The notes beneath the pieces are model-generated. The model had not been told where the DNA came from, did no database searches, and saw only the letters and a list, made by a program, of their open reading frames with translations. A program made the position numbers and the translations under genes. Below are positions 3,780-32,536 of a stretch of 32,536 nucleotides of DNA, one piece after another. This stretch comes from a virus: positions 1 to 32,536 of IMG/VR virus record IMGVR_UViG_3300038491_000032, one strand, 5' to 3'. Each line of letters opens with the position of its first letter. The stretch's first letter is position 1.

Positions 3780-4063
3780 TGATATTAAAGAAATATAATT
3801 TTAAAGATAAAGAACAAGCGGAGGAAAAAATTACTACTTTATACAATGAAGAAAAAGAATTAAAATATAATTGCGATATTTTTAAGTTAGGTAAATTAAT
3901 TGATGTTAAAGGTGAATATGACATTGATGGCAACGTGATTAAAGAGCCAATTTATTTAGATGGATATTCGGTAGATATTTTATTCAGAGATTTAAAAGAG
4001 AGTCCTTACGGATTTAAAACTTACGAGGTAGAACCAAAAAACCCTAAACACAAAATAATATAA
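3779..4063 (+). CDS. Small conserved-type phage protein after the fibre
   Basis: This 94-residue protein starts within the stop of the fibre gene (TAATG) and ends within the start of the next gene, so all three are translationally linked. It is charged, with an N-terminal helix-like part and a C-terminal segment (YSVDILFRDLKESPYGFKTYEVEPKNPKH) of a kind I associate with small genes next to fibre and lysis genes in Bacteroidota phages. No catalytic motif, signal peptide or membrane segment is visible. A fibre accessory or chaperone role is possible; the function is unknown. Confidence 0.75.
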   Translation: MILKKYNFKDKEQAEEKITTLYNEEKELKYNCDIFKLGKLIDVKGEYDIDGNVIKEPIYLDGYSVDILFRDLKESPYGFKTYEVEPKNPKHKII

Positions 4064-4305
4064 TGAAAGATTTTATAAACATATTTAGTAAAGTACCACA
4101 CGATAAATTAGCACACTTCTTTAGCGGGAGTGTGTTATTTGTATTATTAAACTTCTTTTTTATAGATTTAACAAGTGCTGTTTTAGTATTGATTGCAGCA
4201 GTTTCTAAGGAATTAGTTTGGGATGGAATTATGAAACAAGGTACAGTAGATGTGGTTGATGCTTTATTTACATTTATGCCTGTAATATTTTACTTTGTTG
4301 TATGA
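4063..4305 (+). CDS. Small two-helix membrane protein, holin candidate
   Basis: This 80-residue protein has two hydrophobic stretches, about 21-46 (SVLFVLLNFFFIDL and following residues) and 65-80 (ALFTFMPVIFYFVV). A short loop between them holds SKELVWDGIMKQGTVDVVD. The N-terminal VPHDKLAHFFSGS resembles small membrane proteins of phages in which His and acidic residues flank the helices. It lies directly before the PAS-domain membrane protein (four-base overlap) and the endolysin. The endolysin has no export signal, so a pore former is needed and this is one candidate. The membrane topology is visible; the holin function is inferred from context. Confidence 0.7.
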   Translation: MKDFINIFSKVPHDKLAHFFSGSVLFVLLNFFFIDLTSAVLVLIAAVSKELVWDGIMKQGTVDVVDALFTFMPVIFYFVV

Positions 4306-4928
4306 ATGAAATAATCCAAACAGTAGTACCTGCAATAGCTACTCTATTAGGCGGAGGTTTAATTGGTAAATACTTTGCGCACCAACAAGAGAAGAGGAAA
4401 CAAGGCACAAGCGAGTTTAGGGAATTGATGATTGAGCGCAAAAACTACACGACTGAACTATCTGAGCGTATTGATGAGTTAGAAAAGTTGATAGAAACTC
4501 AAACCCAAATAATGAGACAGCAAAGTGAGGAAATAAACAAACTAAGAATGCAGCTAATCACTTTAGAAAATTCTGCTAACGATGCACCTCTGCCTATATG
4601 GTTAAAAGATAATAACGGATATATGATATTCTTAAATAGTTATTATGAAGATATGTTTTTAACCCCCGCAGGAAAAACTATTGATGATTACATAGGTAAA
4701 AGTGATGTTGATGTATGGGGTGAAGAGATTGGTGAAGAGTACAGAGGTAATGATTTAGAGGTACACTATAATAGAAAAGCTATAAGATATGTTGAAAATG
4801 TAAAAGTGAATGGGGTAGAATCAGCTATTGAGGTGTTGAAATACCCAAGATTTTACAAAAATCAAGTAATTGGCATCGGGGGATTAGTATTAAGAACCGC
4901 AGCGAGTAAAGAGGAACTTTGCGGATAA
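4302..4928 (+). CDS. Membrane-anchored coiled-coil PAS-domain protein in lysis cassette
   Basis: Three parts can be read in this 208-residue protein. Residues 4-25 form a hydrophobic, Gly-rich segment (VVPAIATLLGGGLIGKYF) suitable as a membrane anchor. Residues 28-92 are charged and heptad-like, with many Glu/Lys and Leu, so probably a coiled coil. Residues about 95-200 look like a PAS sensor domain: PIWLKDNNGYMIFLNSYYE, then DDYIGKSDVDVWGEEIGEEYRGND, and the closing YKNQVIGIGGLVLRT. PAS domains bind small ligands or cofactors or mediate protein contacts, typically in bacterial signalling proteins. No kinase or cyclase output is present. The gene overlaps the small membrane gene by four bases and is 10 bases from the endolysin, so a role in lysis or its timing is suggested. 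The PAS call is strong; the role is unknown. Confidence 0.78.
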   Translation: MNEIIQTVVPAIATLLGGGLIGKYFAHQQEKRKQGTSEFRELMIERKNYTTELSERIDELEKLIETQTQIMRQQSEEINKLRMQLITLENSANDAPLPIWLKDNNGYMIFLNSYYEDMFLTPAGKTIDDYIGKSDVDVWGEEIGEEYRGNDLEVHYNRKAIRYVENVKVNGVESAIEVLKYPRFYKNQVIGIGGLVLRTAASKEELCG

Positions 4929-4938
4929 AAGTAAGATT

Positions 4939-5325
4939 ATGAAATTAACAGAGAATTTTAGTTTAAGTGAGTTTAAATGTAAGTGCGGGAATTGCACAAT
5001 GGACTCAATAGTGAAATCAAATATCAAGATTTTAGCAAGGGAATTGCAAGTGTTGAGGGAAGCGATACAGAAACCAATATCTATAAATAGCGGTTACAGG
5101 TGTGATGAGCATAACAAAGCAATAGGCGGTGTTAAATACTCTAAGCATTTATTAGGTATGGCTGCAGATATTAGAGTTGATGGAATGAATCCCAAAGAAG
5201 TTGCAGAGGTTGTTGAGCAATTGATTGATGATAATAAGATAATTAACGGAGGGTTAGGTATTTACCCATCTTTTGTACATTTCGATATTTACCAACCAAC
5301 AAAGAAAAGACGTTGGAACTATTAA
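4939..5325 (+). CDS. Endolysin, M15A-type peptidase
   Basis: This 128-residue protein is a single catalytic domain of the zinc D,D-/L,D-peptidase M15 family that cleaves peptidoglycan stem peptides. The fold signatures are visible: SGYRC at 51-55, HN at 58-59, and the zinc-site motif SKHLLGMAAD in which H70 and D77 are the expected ligands. GGLGIYPSFVHFD follows, with H114 as the third ligand. The length is that of a minimal M15 domain. There is no signal peptide, transmembrane segment or wall-binding domain, so it should need a holin to reach the periplasm. It is the last gene of the plus-strand late arc and is followed by a hairpin terminator. Confidence 0.9.
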   Translation: MKLTENFSLSEFKCKCGNCTMDSIVKSNIKILARELQVLREAIQKPISINSGYRCDEHNKAIGGVKYSKHLLGMAADIRVDGMNPKEVAEVVEQLIDDNKIINGGLGIYPSFVHFDIYQPTKKRRWNY

Positions 5326-5363: not shown

Positions 5364-5717
5364 TTATAAATCTAACCCAAGTGAGCGTAGCCGGGTGAGT
5401 TCTCTTGTTCTTAAATCTGAAACTCTTATTTTTACTAAAGTTTTGTAAATTTGCCCTCCGTAGCCTACACTTATATATGAATCTACTACCCCGTAATAAT
5501 AGTTTATATTTTCATCAAAAACAATTAAAGGGTGGTGCTCGGGTTTGAATAGGTAAACAGATTGCCCATCTACCTGCCCATCTAAATAATCATCGTAGTT
5601 GAAATACTCTAATTTTGAAGAAAACATAACTACTACAAAATCATCCTCAATTATATCATCATTACTACAACTTGTTAATGATAATATTGCTAATAATACT
5701 AATACTAATTTTTTCAT
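5364..5717 (-). CDS. Surface-type lipoprotein, superinfection-exclusion candidate
   Basis: This 117-residue protein begins with a lipoprotein signal peptide: a basic MKK, a hydrophobic stretch and the lipobox LTSC with the lipidated cysteine at residue 17. SNDDIIEDD follows, close to the Ser/Asp-rich export signal that sends Bacteroidota lipoproteins to the outer leaflet of the outer membrane. The mature part is beta-like, with many Tyr and Val and no known domain. It is the last gene of the minus-strand block. Small phage lipoproteins in such accessory positions often block infection by related phages. The signal and sorting sequence are seen; the exclusion role is inference. Confidence 0.78.
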   Translation of the reverse strand: MKKLVLVLLAILSLTSCSNDDIIEDDFVVVMFSSKLEYFNYDDYLDGQVDGQSVYLFKPEHHPLIVFDENINYYYGVVDSYISVGYGGQIYKTLVKIRVSDLRTRELTRLRSLGLDL

Positions 5718-5733
5718 TTTATTATTTTTTTAA

Positions 5734-6141
5734 TTAATTACTTGTTAAATTATATTCTTTTAATAGTTTGTCTACTAATTTTTCTATTCTCTTAGGGTTT
5801 TCTTTAAATACCATTTCACACTTCATTAAAAACATCATATTGCTGAATCCATTCTTTAAAATAAATTCCATTCCACTCATTAAATTAGAAGATACTTTGT
5901 GCGTAGTTTCCTCATCTGAATCAAAGACTTTATCAAACTCCCTCTCTTCTGCTTTAATTAATTCCTTTTGAAACAAAGAACCGTGCTTCTTCATATTATG
6001 CTTGTAGTATGGGCTTTTTAAGCGCATCAACTCATCTTGGTAATGCAACATTACTTGTGATGCAATTATACTTGATGTGACAGCTTCCAAGTGTCTCTTC
6101 TGATATACTTCGTTTATACTTTTATTCAATTGTTTTATCAT
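5734..6141 (-). CDS. Hypothetical alpha-helical protein
   Basis: This 135-residue protein is highly charged and predicted by eye to be almost all helix, with no Cys-rich site, signal or membrane segment. A Met-rich stretch (NLMSGMEFILKNGFSNMMFLMK) lies around residues 87-108, and the C-terminus is Lys-rich (RIEKLVDKLLKEY). It lies 16 bases upstream of the lipoprotein gene in the same direction, so both could share a transcript. I do not recognise the family. Confidence 0.7.
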   Translation of the reverse strand: MIKQLNKSINEVYQKRHLEAVTSSIIASQVMLHYQDELMRLKSPYYKHNMKKHGSLFQKELIKAEEREFDKVFDSDEETTHKVSSNLMSGMEFILKNGFSNMMFLMKCEMVFKENPKRIEKLVDKLLKEYNLTSN

Positions 6142-6194
6142 CTTCTAAATATTTTACTCTGTTTCTATAAATTAATTTCTGTTATTTAATCTTG

Positions 6195-6256
6195 CAATAC
6201 TTACAACACCTTATAAAGTGCATTAAAACGCACCTTATACAAACCGTTATGATGCA
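6195..6256. repeat. Hairpin-forming intergenic repeat, copy A
   Basis: A 29-base core (6214-6242) is identical to copy B at 7325-7353, with similar flanks on both sides. The core holds the dyad ATAAAGTGC / GCACCTTAT around an 8-base loop. The upstream flank (aatacttacaacacc, 6196-6210) recurs with one partial copy near 7782. It lies between two minus-strand genes and resembles the dispersed palindromic intergenic elements of flavobacterial chromosomes. Confidence 0.75.
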
Positions 6257-6289
6257 ATTAAAAAGGCACATAACAATATATATAAAAAA

Positions 6290-6523
6290 TTAAGGTTTAC
6301 CGTCTTTTTGCCATTGTTCAAACTCTTTAATTTGGTCTGTGCTAAATTTTTCAGCAAGTACGCAAAGCTTATTTAATAAATGGTCTTCATCTTCAGTCCA
6401 CATTTTATTTTCTCTGTAACCTAATTCGCTAATTAAGTTTATAAAAGCCATTTCTGTACTTACTTTTAGTCTTGTTTTTAATGGTATATTTTTAACCATT
6501 TCTGTCATTGCTTTGCTTCTCAT
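6290..6523 (-). CDS. Small hypothetical phage protein
   Basis: This 77-residue protein starts MRSKAMTEMVKNIPLKTRLKV and continues with STEMAFINLISELGYRENKMW and an acidic, helical C-terminal half. The pattern of a short N-terminal helix followed by a conserved-looking FINLISELGYR is one I associate with small early genes of Bacteroidota phages, but no function is known to me. The start could also be Met 6. It lies downstream of the methyltransferase (42 bases) in the same direction and is followed by repeat copy A. Confidence 0.65.
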   Translation of the reverse strand: MRSKAMTEMVKNIPLKTRLKVSTEMAFINLISELGYRENKMWTEDEDHLLNKLCVLAEKFSTDQIKEFEQWQKDGKP

Positions 6524-6564
6524 AATTCCTTAACTTTTCATATATTTTAACGTTAGCTACAATA

Positions 6565-7287
6565 CTATTCTTGTACTCTTTTACAGGCGATGTCATAGTA
6601 TTTAGGGTCTTGCTCCATCATTATATAATTTCGGTTTAGATTTTTTGCTCCAAGTCCAGTTGTGCCACTTCCGCAAGTATTATCAAGTATTAAATCTCCT
6701 TCATTACTGTAAGTTTTTATTAAATACTCCATTAACTCTAAAGGCTTTTCTGTGGGGTGTTGTTTTGCTTTTTGGTTTGCGTTACTTATTTCTATTATAC
6801 TTGTAGGGTAGTATTCATTATTCACTTTTATATCTTCTTTATGGCTTCCGTAAGTGCCTTTATTACCTCCAACATATCCCCCTTTTTTTCGTGGCTTACC
6901 CCTCTTTACTTTTATAGGGTTATATTTAGTTTTACCATTTGCAAACACTAAAATATCTTCGTGTTGTCTTAGTGGCATACGTTTAGCGTTTAAAAATCCT
7001 GTTGTGCTTTTTTTATTCCAAATCAATTTATATTTAAACCATTTCGGGTTGCTCATCATTAAAGCACCTGTAAAAATACCATCAGAAGTTAAAACTATAC
7101 AACCATCATTTTTTAAAACTCTTTTGTATTCGTTCCATAATGGTTCAAATGGTATTATGTTTTTATCCCATTTATTACGAGTGGTTCCGTAAGGTAAATC
7201 GCAAAAAATCATATCAATACTTTTATCTTCTACGTGTTTAGGCATTAACTCTAAGCAATCCCCTAAATATATTTCGTTTATCTTCAT
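6565..7287 (-). CDS. Orphan DNA amino-methyltransferase (beta class)
   Basis: This 240-residue enzyme transfers a methyl group from S-adenosylmethionine to an exocyclic amino group of adenine or cytosine in DNA. The catalytic motif IV reads DLPYG (D30-G34), and the SAM-binding motif I comes late, LDNTCGSGTT (201-210). PTEKPLELM lies just before it. Motif IV before motif I defines the beta class, whose length is typically 220-300 residues. No restriction endonuclease or specificity subunit lies nearby, so it is an orphan enzyme, probably protecting phage DNA from host restriction or marking it. The target site cannot be read from sequence. Codon use and A/T content look like those of its neighbours. 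Confidence 0.92.
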   Translation of the reverse strand: MKINEIYLGDCLELMPKHVEDKSIDMIFCDLPYGTTRNKWDKNIIPFEPLWNEYKRVLKNDGCIVLTSDGIFTGALMMSNPKWFKYKLIWNKKSTTGFLNAKRMPLRQHEDILVFANGKTKYNPIKVKRGKPRKKGGYVGGNKGTYGSHKEDIKVNNEYYPTSIIEISNANQKAKQHPTEKPLELMEYLIKTYSNEGDLILDNTCGSGTTGLGAKNLNRNYIMMEQDPKYYDIACKRVQE

Positions 7288-7315
7288 ATTTTTTTTTTAA
7301 ATCCGTAAAGCAGGT

Positions 7316-7366
7316 AACAACGTGTAAAGTGCATTAAAACGCACCTTATACAACACGTTAGTAGCA
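7316..7366. repeat. Hairpin-forming intergenic repeat, copy B
   Basis: The core at 7325-7353 is identical to copy A over 29 bases. Here an outer dyad is also present, AACGTGT (7319-7325) with ACACGTT (7353-7359), enclosing the inner GTGC/GCAC stem, so the whole can fold as a two-part hairpin. It fills the gap between the methyltransferase start at 7287 and the end of a 47-residue ORF at 7374. Confidence 0.75.
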
Positions 7367-7373
7367 ATAAAAA

Positions 7374-7517
7374 TCACTTTATCTTTTTATAATATTGTAA
7401 CTTAAAGCATAAAATTATTATTGTTCTAATATACCAACTACTGCCATCAGTTTTTATTTGTTCATCAAAGTATCCTAACCCAATTATAGGCACTATAAAT
7501 AAGTCTTTAAATTTCAT
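7374..7517 (-). CDS. Small hypothetical protein, 47 residues
   Basis: The frame runs from ATG at 7517 to TGA at 7374-7376 and encodes MKFKDLFIVPIIGLGYF, a polar middle and TIIILCFKLQYYKKIK. It has a hydrophobic N-terminal third and a second hydrophobic stretch before a basic end, which would suit a small membrane-associated protein. It lies in line with its minus-strand neighbours. Coding is supported by uninterrupted frame, strand agreement and start context only. Confidence 0.45.
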   Translation of the reverse strand: MKFKDLFIVPIIGLGYFDEQIKTDGSSWYIRTIIILCFKLQYYKKIK

Positions 7518-7573
7518 AATCGTAATTTTACTATTCACATTCTAATTCGTTAACTACAACAAGCTACATTTCA

Positions 7574-7708
7574 TCAATTTCTTTCTACTTCTACACAAAC
7601 TACATTTCTAACTTCTTTGTTTAGTGCTTTTTTAATAACTTCTTCTAAGTCTTTAGGTGTGTAGTTAATCCAGTGTGATACGATTTCTACTTTGTAAACT
7701 GTCGCCAT
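7574..7708 (-). CDS. Small hypothetical protein, 44 residues
   Basis: The frame runs from ATG at 7708 to TGA at 7574-7576 and encodes MATVYKVEIVSHWINYTPK followed by a helix (DLEEVIKKALNKEV) and a strand (RNVVCVEVER). The beta-alpha-beta pattern, balanced composition and A-rich leader before the ATG look like a true small phage gene. No function is known to me. It would explain much of the otherwise empty stretch between 7287 and 7814. Confidence 0.6.
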   Translation of the reverse strand: MATVYKVEIVSHWINYTPKDLEEVIKKALNKEVRNVVCVEVERN

Positions 7709-7781
7709 AATTTTTTTGTTTTTGTTTTGTTCATTTTAATTAACTTTAGTTATTTCTATTTTTACACTACTAATCATACGA

Positions 7782-7802
7782 AATACTTACAACACCATAT
7801 AA
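7782..7802. repeat. Partial third copy of the intergenic repeat flank
   Basis: The sequence aatacttacaacacc followed by atataaa matches the left flank of copy A (6196-6217) with one change, after which similarity fades through an A/T-rich stretch. It lies just downstream of the DUF551 gene in the minus direction. The hairpin core is absent, so this looks like a decayed or truncated copy. Confidence 0.5.
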
Positions 7803-7813
7803 AATTAATAAAG

Positions 7814-8014
7814 CTATTGAGGTGCTTTAGGCAAGTGTTGCCAATGGGTTACTTTATAGTTCAGTTCTTTTTTACTATCCCAACCCATAAATTGTTCAGT
7901 TTTTGTATTATAAAGAGCTTCCATAACTACTTTGTTTTCTTTTGCTACCAATACATTTTCAAACCTTAATGGTCTTTTGGTTGGCAACTTGTCTTTTACG
8001 CTAATCCATTTCAT
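7814..8014 (-). CDS. DUF551-family small phage protein
   Basis: This 66-residue protein has the marks of DUF551: an N-terminal WISVKDKLP, a central stretch with Val and Tyr (VLVAKENKVVMEALYN) and the C-terminal VTHWQHLPKAP. The family is widespread in phages and prophages; its function is not established. Length is typical. It lies in the minus-strand accessory block and is followed by the partial intergenic repeat. Confidence 0.85.
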   Translation of the reverse strand: MKWISVKDKLPTKRPLRFENVLVAKENKVVMEALYNTKTEQFMGWDSKKELNYKVTHWQHLPKAPQ

Positions 8015-8077
8015 AATTTAAAGTTTTGTGTTTATTTATACGCTTTACTAATCTTATATTTTACGTTGTAAGTAATA

Positions 8078-8335
8078 TTAATCTTTAATAATTGCTTTAT
8101 ACATTCTTTGTGTTAAGGCTCTGCTGTCTTTCATACTTCTTGCATTTAAACCAAGTGCCTTTTCGTCTAATAAGGTGTCGTGTAATGCTTCTATTGTTAC
8201 GATATCTCTGTCTTTTACCTCAATATTAAAACTACTACCAACACCAAATAAATTTAATAAATGGTTTGCTGTTTCTCCTATGCAGTTTTCCCCTGTTTGC
8301 ATTTTCAGTAATAAATCGTTAATTTGTTTCTTCAT
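8078..8335 (-). CDS. Hypothetical protein
   Basis: This 85-residue protein is mostly helical: MKKQINDLLLKMQTGENCIG, then ETANHLLNLFGVGSS, a short strand region (FNIEVKDRDIVTI) and a basic C-terminus (SRALTQRMYKAII). I do not recognise the family. It starts 22 bases downstream of thyX in the same direction and probably shares its transcript. Confidence 0.68.
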   Translation of the reverse strand: MKKQINDLLLKMQTGENCIGETANHLLNLFGVGSSFNIEVKDRDIVTIEALHDTLLDEKALGLNARSMKDSRALTQRMYKAIIKD

Positions 8336-8356
8336 AATTTCTTTGTTTTCAAACCG

Positions 8357-9034
8357 TTACATAAACATTCCATTCCTCCAATCAATAGAGCCCATAATAT
8401 CGGGTATTTCTTTTTCTATTTCTTCTCCTATAGCTAAAGCTATTTCTTGAACCTCTAATTGTGCGTGTTTATCACACCTTACGTTTAAGAAGCCTAGTAA
8501 ATCTCTTAAAGTTCCTGTTATGTGAATTGTAGTTTTAGTACACAAAGGCAATATATCTCTAGCACATTCTTTAGCGACACCTGCTGACAACAACTCGTTA
8601 TATAAAGTTTCTACTTGATTAAAAAGGCTATCAATCGCATTACTAGCAAATGCATCTCTACCTGCAGCGAAATAATCTTTTAACACAGGGTTGAAGCTAT
8701 CAGTACTACTCTGTCTATTTGTAGGGTGTTCCCTCCTTAAATCAATATCTTCAAACCCTAAAGGCTCTGCGTATCTTAAACTCCATTCTTGACCATTTAA
8801 ACTTCTGTGTCTAAATATCTGAGCCGATATACTTCTTCTTGTCTCTATCTTAAACCCAAAAGATATGTGCTGTAATGGCGACCAATGGGCGTGGTTCATT
8901 AAGTATTTTACTAACTTTCCGTTATCTTCCTTAATTGTTCCGTGTCTAGCAATCGCTGCTATTACTTCTGCGTTAGATAATTCACTATAACTACCTAAAC
9001 CTATTGATTTACTAATTAACTCTACTTTACTCAT
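8357..9034 (-). CDS. thyX: Flavin-dependent thymidylate synthase
   Basis: This 225-residue enzyme makes dTMP from dUMP using methylenetetrahydrofolate, FAD and NADPH, supplying thymidine for phage DNA synthesis, which matters for such an AT-rich genome. The ThyX signature RHRx7S is complete: RHR at 75-77 and S85 in RHRSLNGQEWSLRY. Other family features are the early HAHWSPLQHISFGF and a late TTIHITGTLRDLLGFLNVR segment with the conserved Arg that binds substrate. Length is normal. It lies on the minus strand with the methyltransferase and small genes, a metabolic and modification block. Confidence 0.95.
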   Translation of the reverse strand: MSKVELISKSIGLGSYSELSNAEVIAAIARHGTIKEDNGKLVKYLMNHAHWSPLQHISFGFKIETRRSISAQIFRHRSLNGQEWSLRYAEPLGFEDIDLRREHPTNRQSSTDSFNPVLKDYFAAGRDAFASNAIDSLFNQVETLYNELLSAGVAKECARDILPLCTKTTIHITGTLRDLLGFLNVRCDKHAQLEVQEIALAIGEEIEKEIPDIMGSIDWRNGMFM

Positions 9035-9051
9035 ATCTAAATTTATATTTT

Positions 9052-9264
9052 TTATTGTTCTAATAATTCTTGCTCAATATTCAAAATCACTCTTTTTGAT
9101 AATACATCGAGAATATCCTCACCATTTAGTAAAACTTCTTGTATCTCTAATTCCCCCTGCGATGGCTCATCCCACGTTGCAGACTTATATGGTTCGTAAT
9201 AAAACTCCACCTCTAAAGGAGAATCTAAATCTGCTATTTGAATTGTTTTTGTTTTTACAGGCAT
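9052..9264 (-). CDS. Hypothetical protein upstream of thyX
   Basis: This 70-residue acidic protein starts MPVKTKTIQIADLDSPLEVEF and contains YYEPYKSATWDEPSQGELEI and VLLNGEDILDVL. The aromatic and Pro-containing middle looks like short phage proteins with a small beta fold, but no named domain is certain. It lies 17 bases upstream of thyX in the same direction, so co-transcription is likely. Confidence 0.7.
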   Translation of the reverse strand: MPVKTKTIQIADLDSPLEVEFYYEPYKSATWDEPSQGELEIQEVLLNGEDILDVLSKRVILNIEQELLEQ

Positions 9265-9294
9265 AATATAATACTTTTTCTATTCATAATAAAG

Positions 9295-9315
9295 AAGCAG
9301 TTTTTAAACTTGCTT
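9295..9315 (-). terminator. Weak hairpin after the 9327-9653 gene
   Basis: On the minus strand AAGCAAG pairs imperfectly with CTGCTT over a short A/T loop, followed by ctttatt. It is just downstream of the promoter-proximal gene of the minus block and could be a weak or partial terminator. The stem is short and bulged, so this is tentative. Confidence 0.3.
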
Positions 9316-9326
9316 AGGTTTGTTTA

Positions 9327-9653
9327 TTATTTAGATAAAATATATTCTATTATTTTTTTATCTGATTTAAAAATTTCATTATTATAAACACTATAATAAC
9401 CGGTAATTAAACCACCTTTATTATTGGTTTTATAAGTAACGTGTCTTTCAATATTATAATCTACATTATTAATTGTAAAAACCTCAATAGTTACGTGTTG
9501 TTTGGCTTTTAATCTTTTTGCGGTAGTTACACCTCCTTTAGTTTCAAACATTTTATAAGAAACTTCCTTATTGTAAGTTCTTGAATCATCTATTAAATTC
9601 ATTTCTAAATTTACAAATTGTTTCTTTCCGTTTATATTAATTGATTTTTTCAT
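9327..9653 (-). CDS. Promoter-proximal small hypothetical protein
   Basis: The ATG at 9653 is chosen because an upstream in-frame ATG at 9707 would place the promoter inside the gene. The product is 108 residues, basic and beta-like: MKKSININGKKQFVNLEMN, YNKEVSYKMFETKGGVTTA, KQHVTIEVFTINNVDYNIERHV and a Lys-rich end. No known domain or catalytic motif is visible. It is the first gene of the minus-strand block and has the best promoter in it, with the same leader as the gene at 13686, so early expression is inferred. Confidence 0.75.
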   Translation of the reverse strand: MKKSININGKKQFVNLEMNLIDDSRTYNKEVSYKMFETKGGVTTAKRLKAKQHVTIEVFTINNVDYNIERHVTYKTNNKGGLITGYYSVYNNEIFKSDKKIIEYILSK

Positions 9654-9657
9654 AATG

Positions 9658-9709
9658 TTGTTTTTGTTATTGTTGATGCAAATATACAACCTCTTTTTAC
9701 TTCTCACAA
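9658..9709 (-). promoter_or_regulatory. Bacteroidota-type promoter and leader, minus strand
   Basis: On the minus strand the -33 TTG (9707-9709) lies 20 bases before TATATTTGC (9678-9686), matching the TAnnTTTG consensus. The -7 element and following leader (9658-9686, 29 bases) are identical to those before the gene at 13686. It would drive the minus-strand accessory block. Confidence 0.85.
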
Positions 9710-9765: not shown

Positions 9766-10215
9766 ATGAGGTACATTATAATAATACTTTTATTCATTTC
9801 CTGCGGCTCTAAGAGGGTAATTACAGAAAAGGAACGTAGGGTGTCGGAAAAAATAGAACTAAGCACAAAAGAGATTAAAACCACCTCTAATGAATTGATA
9901 GTGGAAAACCTTAGCGAAATAAATATAACTGCAAATGTTTTAGACACCACCAAAGCAATCACTATAATTGATAAAAAAGGTAATAAGACTGTTTTAAGCA
10001 ATGTAAGGGATGTAACTATACAAAGTATACAGAAAGAAAAGAAAGTGGCTAAAAACGAGGTTAAAGAGGTTGAGGAAGTACAAAGAGATAGTCAAACCGA
10101 TGAGGTAATTATTAAAAAGAAAGACAAAAAAGTAGTAAGGCACTATTGGGTGTTGCTAGTTGCATTAATAATAGGAATTATAATTTACGTAAAGGTTACT
10201 AAATGGGGTATTTAA
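9766..10215 (+). CDS. Probable unimolecular spanin (lipoprotein with C-terminal membrane helix)
   Basis: This 149-residue protein has a lipoprotein signal peptide ending in the lipobox LFISC (Cys 13). A charged periplasmic segment of about 105 residues, rich in Lys/Glu/Thr/Val, follows, then one C-terminal transmembrane helix (about 127-146, YWVLLVALIIGIIIYVKV). A lipid anchor in the outer membrane and a helix in the inner membrane in one chain is the design of u-spanins such as phage T1 gp11, which fuse the two membranes as the last step of lysis. Size fits. It is not next to the endolysin but 4.4 kb away, beyond the minus-strand block. The topology is seen; the spanin role is inferred. Confidence 0.75.
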   Translation: MRYIIIILLFISCGSKRVITEKERRVSEKIELSTKEIKTTSNELIVENLSEINITANVLDTTKAITIIDKKGNKTVLSNVRDVTIQSIQKEKKVAKNEVKEVEEVQRDSQTDEVIIKKKDKKVVRHYWVLLVALIIGIIIYVKVTKWGI

Positions 10216-32253: not shown

Positions 32254-32536
32254 ATGATAGTATTAAAAGAAACAGAAGCGGAACAAGAAATAAGATTGTT
32301 GCCCGTTGAGGGTTTAACTCTTTTGGTATTGGTTAATGAAGCTGATAATAGTATCGCTGATATTGATATAACAATGTCAATTGAAGATTATTATTTAATG
32401 GGTAGGGGTGTGTTTGATTTAAAAGAGGATAATTTTTATACATTAAAAGGGTATAATACTGACTTAGCAAATTATCAATCTAAATTGAGTGAATTGGAAG
32501 CTGAGGGTTTAACGAAAGAAGAAGCAATAGCGGCTT
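32254..32536 (+). CDS. N-terminal part of hypothetical protein crossing the circle join
   Basis: The ATG at 32254 starts 19 bases after the terminator, with a usual A-rich leader. The first 94 codons lie here, and 45 more lie at 1-214 once the overlap is removed, giving 139 residues. The N-terminal half has MIVLKETEAEQEIRLLPVEG, LLVLVNEADNSIADIDITMS and YYLMGRGVFDLKEDNFYTLKG; a helical stretch (YQSKLSELEAEGLTKEEAIA) crosses the join. I do not recognise the family. It stands directly before the portal gene. Confidence 0.85.
   Translation, partial: MIVLKETEAEQEIRLLPVEGLTLLVLVNEADNSIADIDITMSIEDYYLMGRGVFDLKEDNFYTLKGYNTDLANYQSKLSELEAEGLTKEEAIAA
32460..32536. repeat. Terminal direct repeat, right copy
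   Basis: Identical to 1-77. Removing one copy joins the gene at 32254 to its continuation at 1-214 in frame and gives a circle of 32,459 bp. Confidence 0.95.

Follow-up and report, generated by a model that had tools for sequence, protein, structure and literature searches.

Can a phage decide when to lyse its host from something that it senses within the cell? The question is raised by an open reading frame that encodes a membrane-anchored PAS domain immediately upstream of an endolysin gene. It lies in an IMG/VR virus record, 32,536 bp long, which is the whole stretch of DNA analysed here and is referred to as the window. The window carries a 77-bp direct terminal repeat at 1-77 and 32460-32536, which indicates a complete genome that was assembled as a circle. 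The gene order, with a portal gene (216-2003) followed by genes for a DUF6712 protein and a tail protein and then by a lysis block (4063-5325), is that of a tailed phage, and its host is probably a marine member of the Bacteroidota.

Organisation of the lysis block

The features discussed below are as follows, with the evidence for each in brackets.

4063..4305, plus strand: small hydrophobic protein of 80 aa with about 2-3 TM segments, holin candidate (ORF, hydropathy)
4302..4928, plus strand: TM-helix-PAS protein of 208 aa, hereafter the PAS protein (ORF, Pfam, AlphaFold2, Foldseek, second aligner)
4311..4367, plus strand: codons of its single, glycine-rich TM segment, residues 4-22, IIQTVVPAIATLLGGGLIG (hydropathy)
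4407..4580, plus strand: codons of its long helix, residues 36-93, a probable coiled coil (AlphaFold2 secondary structure; weak coiled-coil-type profile matches)
4584..4889, plus strand: its PAS domain (Pfam PAS_4), residues 95-196 (Pfam, predicted structure)
4939..5325, plus strand: M15 endolysin (Peptidase_M15_3) of 128 aa (Pfam and PHROG profiles)
9766..10215, plus strand: unimolecular-spanin-like protein with an N-terminal lipobox-like ISC and a C-terminal TM segment (sequence; counterpart in L005/L006)

An earlier note on this DNA had placed the PAS gene between a holin candidate and the endolysin. The arrangement itself stands, as the stop of the upstream gene and the start of the PAS gene share the four bases ATGA (4302-4305), and the endolysin gene (Peptidase_M15_3 / PHROG 894 endolysin, E 5e-39) starts 10 bases 3' of the PAS stop codon. 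The holin identity of the 80 aa protein, on the other hand, is plausible and that of a candidate only. Profile searches returned no match to a holin or other family model apart from a weak one to PHROG 35767, to which no function is assigned, and the protein has no relatives among annotated phages. A gene for a protein of this type also precedes the PAS gene in L005/L006. The u-spanin-like gene (u-spanin as defined in PMC6139136) is located about 4.4 kb from the endolysin gene, with a run of genes on the minus strand (about 5364-9707) in between; the counterpart in L005/L006 follows the endolysin directly.

Domain architecture and topology of the PAS protein

The earlier note described a typical PAS segment preceded by a short membrane segment and a coiled coil, with no output enzyme domain, and this description is borne out. 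Pfam PAS_4 (PF08448) scores 26.1 bits over residues 95-196 (cut-off 23.1, E 1e-5), and the peptides that had been quoted in support, IWLKDNNGYMIFLNSYYE, IGKSDVDVWGEEIG and VIGIGGLVL, are present at residues 99-116, 131-144 and 189-197. An AlphaFold2 model built with ten phage sequences reaches a block pLDDT of about 86-94 across residues 101-200. Its best PDB matches in Foldseek are the PAS domains of BvgS, VqmA, Aer and NifL (probability 1.0), and a second aligner gives Z scores of 13.3 for the PAS/HD-GYP protein DvhD and 12.3-12.4 for VqmA, over 95-105 residues with an rmsd of 2.1-2.8. A profile score above the cut-off and a predicted fold that resembles solved PAS domains (Foldseek/VIA) together confirm the domain. 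The N-terminal part is modelled less surely (block pLDDT about 47-81) as two helices at residues 2-31 and 36-93.

A single hydrophobic segment at residues 4-22 is followed by a K/R-rich stretch and then by the helix of about 58 residues (36-93), for which a coiled coil is probable. The segment is flanked by no K or R residues before it and four after it, so that hydropathy and charge predict an N-out/C-in orientation with the PAS part in the cytoplasm. Positive-inside counts give the same prediction for each of the 14 window-type members examined, namely the window protein and 13 close relatives. The K+R counts of the divergent members from Cellulophaga phages are ambiguous or opposite, and a single cytoplasmic-sensor model may therefore not fit the entire family.

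The protein stops 12 residues past the PAS match and has no output domain. PHROG matches of the N-terminal TM-helix part ('hol-like chemotaxis', 18-30 bits) possibly reflect coiled-coil composition and are not relied on; the same part used alone as a query retrieved nothing from the annotated phages. The alignment of the PAS family has no conserved cysteine and no heme or flavin motif was seen by eye, and redox sensing thus has no sequence support, while binding of a flavin or quinone by the domain is possible. Six residues are near-invariant (W100, N112, Y115, D135, D151 and K180), which suggests, from conservation, that they form a functional core.

Homologues in other phages

Beyond the window phage, at least five phage lineages share the TM-helix-PAS plan, mostly beside a lysin gene. 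Homologues are encoded by the Crassvirales phage phi14:2, by the Cellulophaga phages phi18:3, phi3:1 and Ingeline, by Chryseobacterium jumbo phages and by marine contigs. Searches with tblastn matched phi14:2 (38%) and the Chryseobacterium phages MA9V-1/2 (31%). Thirteen IMG/VR records other than phi14:2 came from scans with profiles and motifs, one of which, with a degenerate DNA pattern, matched 14 places and thereby brought in three new ones. An HMM of the family, made from 16 sequences, detects divergent members that Pfam misses, phi18:3 gp090 (34 bits), Ingeline_1 gp36 (27 bits) and phi3:1 gp11 (26 bits), and weakly matches phi19:1 gp108 (15 bits). The phi18:3 and phi19:1 proteins were first found by a structure search of viral proteins, and the phi18:3-type protein is present in 24 Cellulophaga records. 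GTDB contigs scanned with the family profile and one stringent motif yielded six pattern matches and no relatives; scanned with the M15 endolysin, they yielded two distant matches only.

The plan is kept in homologues at 23-45% identity, and the motif PxPxWxKD...NxxY...DYxGxxDxxW...D...K is nearly invariant across the family. In three close pairs dN/dS is about 0.04 (L005/L006), 0.11 (L009/L012) and 0.05 (MA9V-2/1), ratios that indicate strong purifying selection on the PAS gene. Together these observations indicate that the reading frame is more than a chance one.

The Brevundimonas phages Kabachok and Kikimora (L064:3845-4775 and L065:3953-4868) encode a soluble protein of the same PAS subfamily, and an overlapping gene that follows it encodes a coiled-coil protein with a C-terminal TM segment, so that the TM-coil-PAS plan is here split over two genes. 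No lysin was recognised near the soluble PAS gene in these phages.

Lysin neighbours of the PAS gene

PAS domains in phage lysis genes had been called unusual in the earlier note; the survey extends this picture, as the slot recurs beside M15, GH19, GH108 and DUF5675 lysins and is not rare. The pairing of a TM-coil-PAS gene with an M15 endolysin, for which the same note suggested a survey of Bacteroidota phages, does exist, but is not specific to M15. An M15 gene is adjacent to the PAS gene or within two genes of it in the window, L005, L006, phi3:1 and L034, where it is cut by the contig end. In phi14:2 the neighbour is a GH19 enzyme, and a GH108 gene is found near the PAS gene in L015, phi18:3 and MA9V-1/2, in the last of these two genes away and as the sole GH108 of the genome. 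L008, L011 and Ingeline_1 have a DUF5675 gene, which is not a proven lysin and is counted as one by position. DUF5675 holds the lysin slot in L008, L011 and L074 and may be an uncharacterised endolysin family. As the neighbouring lysins are non-homologous, the constant part of the arrangement is the PAS protein and not the enzyme.

The start of the lysin gene overlaps the PAS gene in phi14:2, L005, L006, L011, L034 and phi3:1, and a gene for a small multi-TM protein lies 5' of the PAS gene in the window, L005/L006, phi18:3, Ingeline_1 and phi3:1. Several cassettes continue with spanin-like genes, which in L005/L006, L014 and MA9V encode a lipoprotein with a C-terminal TM segment and in phi3:1 a TM protein and a lipoprotein in overlapping frames. 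The PAS gene is one to two genes from a lysin gene in six annotated genomes; the naive Fisher P of 2e-5 is an indication only, as these genomes are partly related and were partly picked after a lysin had been seen nearby. The short or partial contigs L009/L010/L012, L028 and L032 contain no recognisable lysin near the PAS gene, which in L009/L010/L012 and L032 lies among structural genes, and the weak member of phi19:1 is five genes from a lysozyme. Overall, it is well supported that the PAS protein belongs to the lysis cassette. In L014 a TM-PAS gene (L014:2386-3485) is directly followed by a u-spanin-like lipoprotein gene and then by an integrase-like gene.

GAF proteins in a similar slot

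Like PAS, GAF is a small fold that bacterial sensors commonly use to bind ligands, and both folds dimerise. BS-TP1 (gp129, PHROG 38864) and the gut phages L051-L063 encode TM-GAF proteins that are like the PAS protein in size, in the N-out/C-in N-terminal TM segment and in the slot near the lysin, but whose C-terminal sensor-type domain is GAF and not PAS; no homology is claimed. The genes of the human-gut-type phages L053-L063 are located directly 5' of a GH108 lysin, whereas in L051, L052 and BS-TP1 the lysin is an amidase encoded three genes further on. For the L063 protein AlphaFold2 predicts a GAF fold (pLDDT 85), with a Z score of 17.7 over 150 residues. In Nonlabens phage P12024S, whose M15 endolysin is 52% identical to that of the window, the TM protein encoded just before the endolysin contains a GAF-like domain that scores 17 bits and falls short of the Pfam cut-off; the TM-GAF proteins of the human-gut-type phages are its homologues. 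A small multi-TM protein is also encoded in the cassettes of the TM-GAF phages L024 and P12024S. PAS and GAF have thus been used independently on one type of membrane anchor next to lysins. This is the best pointer, though short of proof, to selection for sensing and not just for dimerisation.

Further TM-GAF proteins occur elsewhere. The cyanophage-like ones (L023:4878-5477, L040-L048) have PhoH and capsid or tail genes as neighbours and not lysins, as seen in L023 and L046. Another group (L039, L043 and L044) is followed by genes for a zinc-ribbon-like protein and a sigma-factor-like protein and not by a recognised lysin.

Possible role in lysis

We consider the PAS protein to be an accessory, holin-like lysis protein with a single N-out/C-in TMD that carries a cytoplasmic helical stalk and a PAS sensor domain, and put the probability of this reading at about one half. 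It is proposed that the protein would dimerise via its glycine-rich TM helix, its stalk and its PAS domain, and that it may associate with the small multi-TM product of the adjacent upstream gene. It would hold back or license the permeabilisation of the membrane until a cytosolic cue, such as a small metabolite or an energy-state signal, is detected by the PAS domain, upon which the M15 endolysin would be released and the u-spanin-like protein would complete lysis. We infer both that the domain binds a ligand and that the protein affects the time of lysis; the domain may also be a pure scaffold. Among the observations that count against this reading are the contigs L009/L010/L012, L028 and L032 with no recognisable lysin next to the PAS gene, the ambiguous or opposite topology of the divergent Cellulophaga members, the position of the cyanophage TM-GAF proteins among capsid and tail genes and the soluble PAS protein of the Brevundimonas phages, which is accompanied by a separate coil-TM gene and no recognised lysin.

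The usual picture of holin timing is that of an internal clock set by holin accumulation, and to our knowledge there are few cases of direct external control of the lysis machinery, the classic one being T4 lysis inhibition. A wider and more tentative proposal, which we hold to be somewhat less probable than the role of the window protein itself, is that membrane-anchored PAS or GAF proteins beside interchangeable endolysins are a shared 'sensory lysis' device of phages mostly of Bacteroidota, in which a host metabolite or energy ligand gates the holin and lysis time is set post-translationally and not only by holin accumulation. The recurrence of PAS and GAF beside unrelated lysis enzymes suggests that in these phages the time of host lysis may depend on something sensed within the cell. 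If true, it would give phages, crAss-like and human-gut phages included, a ligand-controlled lysis step. The Cellulophaga phages phi14:2, phi18:3 and phi3:1 have cultured hosts, which makes the idea directly testable by gene deletion. Searches of the open-access literature on PAS or GAF together with holins, endolysins or phage lysis turned up no account of such a class of membrane-anchored proteins in lysis cassettes.

The best-placed alternative is that the TM-helix-PAS protein is itself the holin and that its PAS domain only drives dimerisation or oligomerisation as a scaffold, without sensing a ligand. PAS domains often dimerise, in phi14:2, L011 and L015 the PAS protein is the only membrane protein that directly touches the endolysin upstream, and the single-TMD N-out/C-in protein LysF1b has holin-like activity (PMC13056207). 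We nevertheless regard this as unlikely, because a separate small multi-TM protein is present in the cassettes of the window, phi18:3, Ingeline_1 and phi3:1 as well as in those of the TM-GAF phages named above, and because conservation is centred on the PAS core, beyond what a mere dimer scaffold needs. The use of either PAS or GAF also points to a property that the two share, which includes ligand binding as well as dimerisation.

It is a good deal less probable that the protein acts on host signalling, for example by sequestering or heterodimerising with host PAS sensor kinases, and that its proximity to lysis genes merely reflects a shared late transcript. The missing output domain would suit such a role, as would the weak similarity of the window protein to the linker-PAS segment of ArcB (17.5 bits, far below the cut-off), which at the sequence level might be a weak lead toward energy or redox state. 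The late position is wrong for host takeover, and placement is conserved with non-homologous lysins, the lysin start frequently overlapping the PAS stop. The least probable reading makes the protein a minor component of the virion or tail, encoded where the tail module ends, for although the cassette comes after the tail genes and the PAS gene lies among structural genes in L009/L010/L012 and L032, the protein has a TM segment and adjoins a lysin, and the phi14:2 and phi18:3 records, which list virion proteins detected by MS/MS, do not mark it as one.

Comparison with known systems

A PAS protein beside an endolysin is already contained in the record of phi14:2 (Crassvirales, Steigviridae), whose g078, a 'PAS fold protein' annotated by similarity only, is given no function there. 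It has the TM-helix-PAS plan of the window protein (38% identity over 88% of the length), and like it is encoded directly before the endolysin, which is a GH19 and not an M15 enzyme.

With the accessory, holin-like reading in mind, the best-characterised likeness of plan is to LysF1b of the F1-cluster mycobacteriophages, which has a single N-terminal TMD in N-out/C-in orientation, whose gene overlaps that of a small 2-TMD protein by ATGA, and whose loss alters lysis timing; energy poisons trigger it in a holin-like manner (PMC13056207). The window protein shares with LysF1b, and with Ms6 gp5, the single N-terminal TMD, the predicted orientation, the ATGA overlap with an upstream multi-TM gene in the lysis cassette and a charged helical cytoplasmic part (PMC13056207). 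LysF1b is from phages of Gram-positive hosts and no PAS or GAF domain is described in it (PMC13056207). The likeness is one of plan alone, and membership in the LysF1b-like proteins is therefore not claimed.

The TM segment and the adjacent lysin make the window protein a membrane protein encoded in a lysis cassette, as holins are. Like the class III holin T of T4, it combines a single TMD with a globular domain, but T has an N-in/C-out topology (PMC3556154, PMC13056207), whereas K+R counts predict the opposite for the window protein and its 13 close relatives, and the assignment to class III was rejected. An i-spanin of the Rz type was rejected as well, given the opposite predicted topology, the globular PAS domain at the C terminus and a match to an Rz-like LysB model of 13.6 bits against a cut-off of 92.75. 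So was an anti-phage defence protein, for which PADLOC matches are weak (about 15 bits) and confined to the helical part.

VqmA of Vibrio and its counterpart in phage VP882 (gp56, and not gp59) are nearest to the PAS family among PDB sequences, VqmA being the sole match of the family profile there (E 3e-5), in addition to the fold similarity (Z 12.3-12.4). The residues of VqmA that are critical for DPO are F67, F99 and K101 (PMC10426928). In the alignment K101 corresponds to the invariant K180, F67 to Y147 (F in most members) and F99 to V178. PAS_4 proteins in general often carry residues of this kind, so that DPO sensing is not claimed even though two of the three are kept. The C-terminal LuxR-type DNA-binding domain of VqmA is absent, the window protein ending after its PAS domain. 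VqmA of VP882 is a PAS protein through which a phage proceeds to lysis once the autoinducer DPO is detected (PMC12802170). It is a transcription factor, soluble and equipped with a DNA-binding domain, and governs the lytic switch, whereas the window protein is a membrane protein encoded within the lysis cassette itself.
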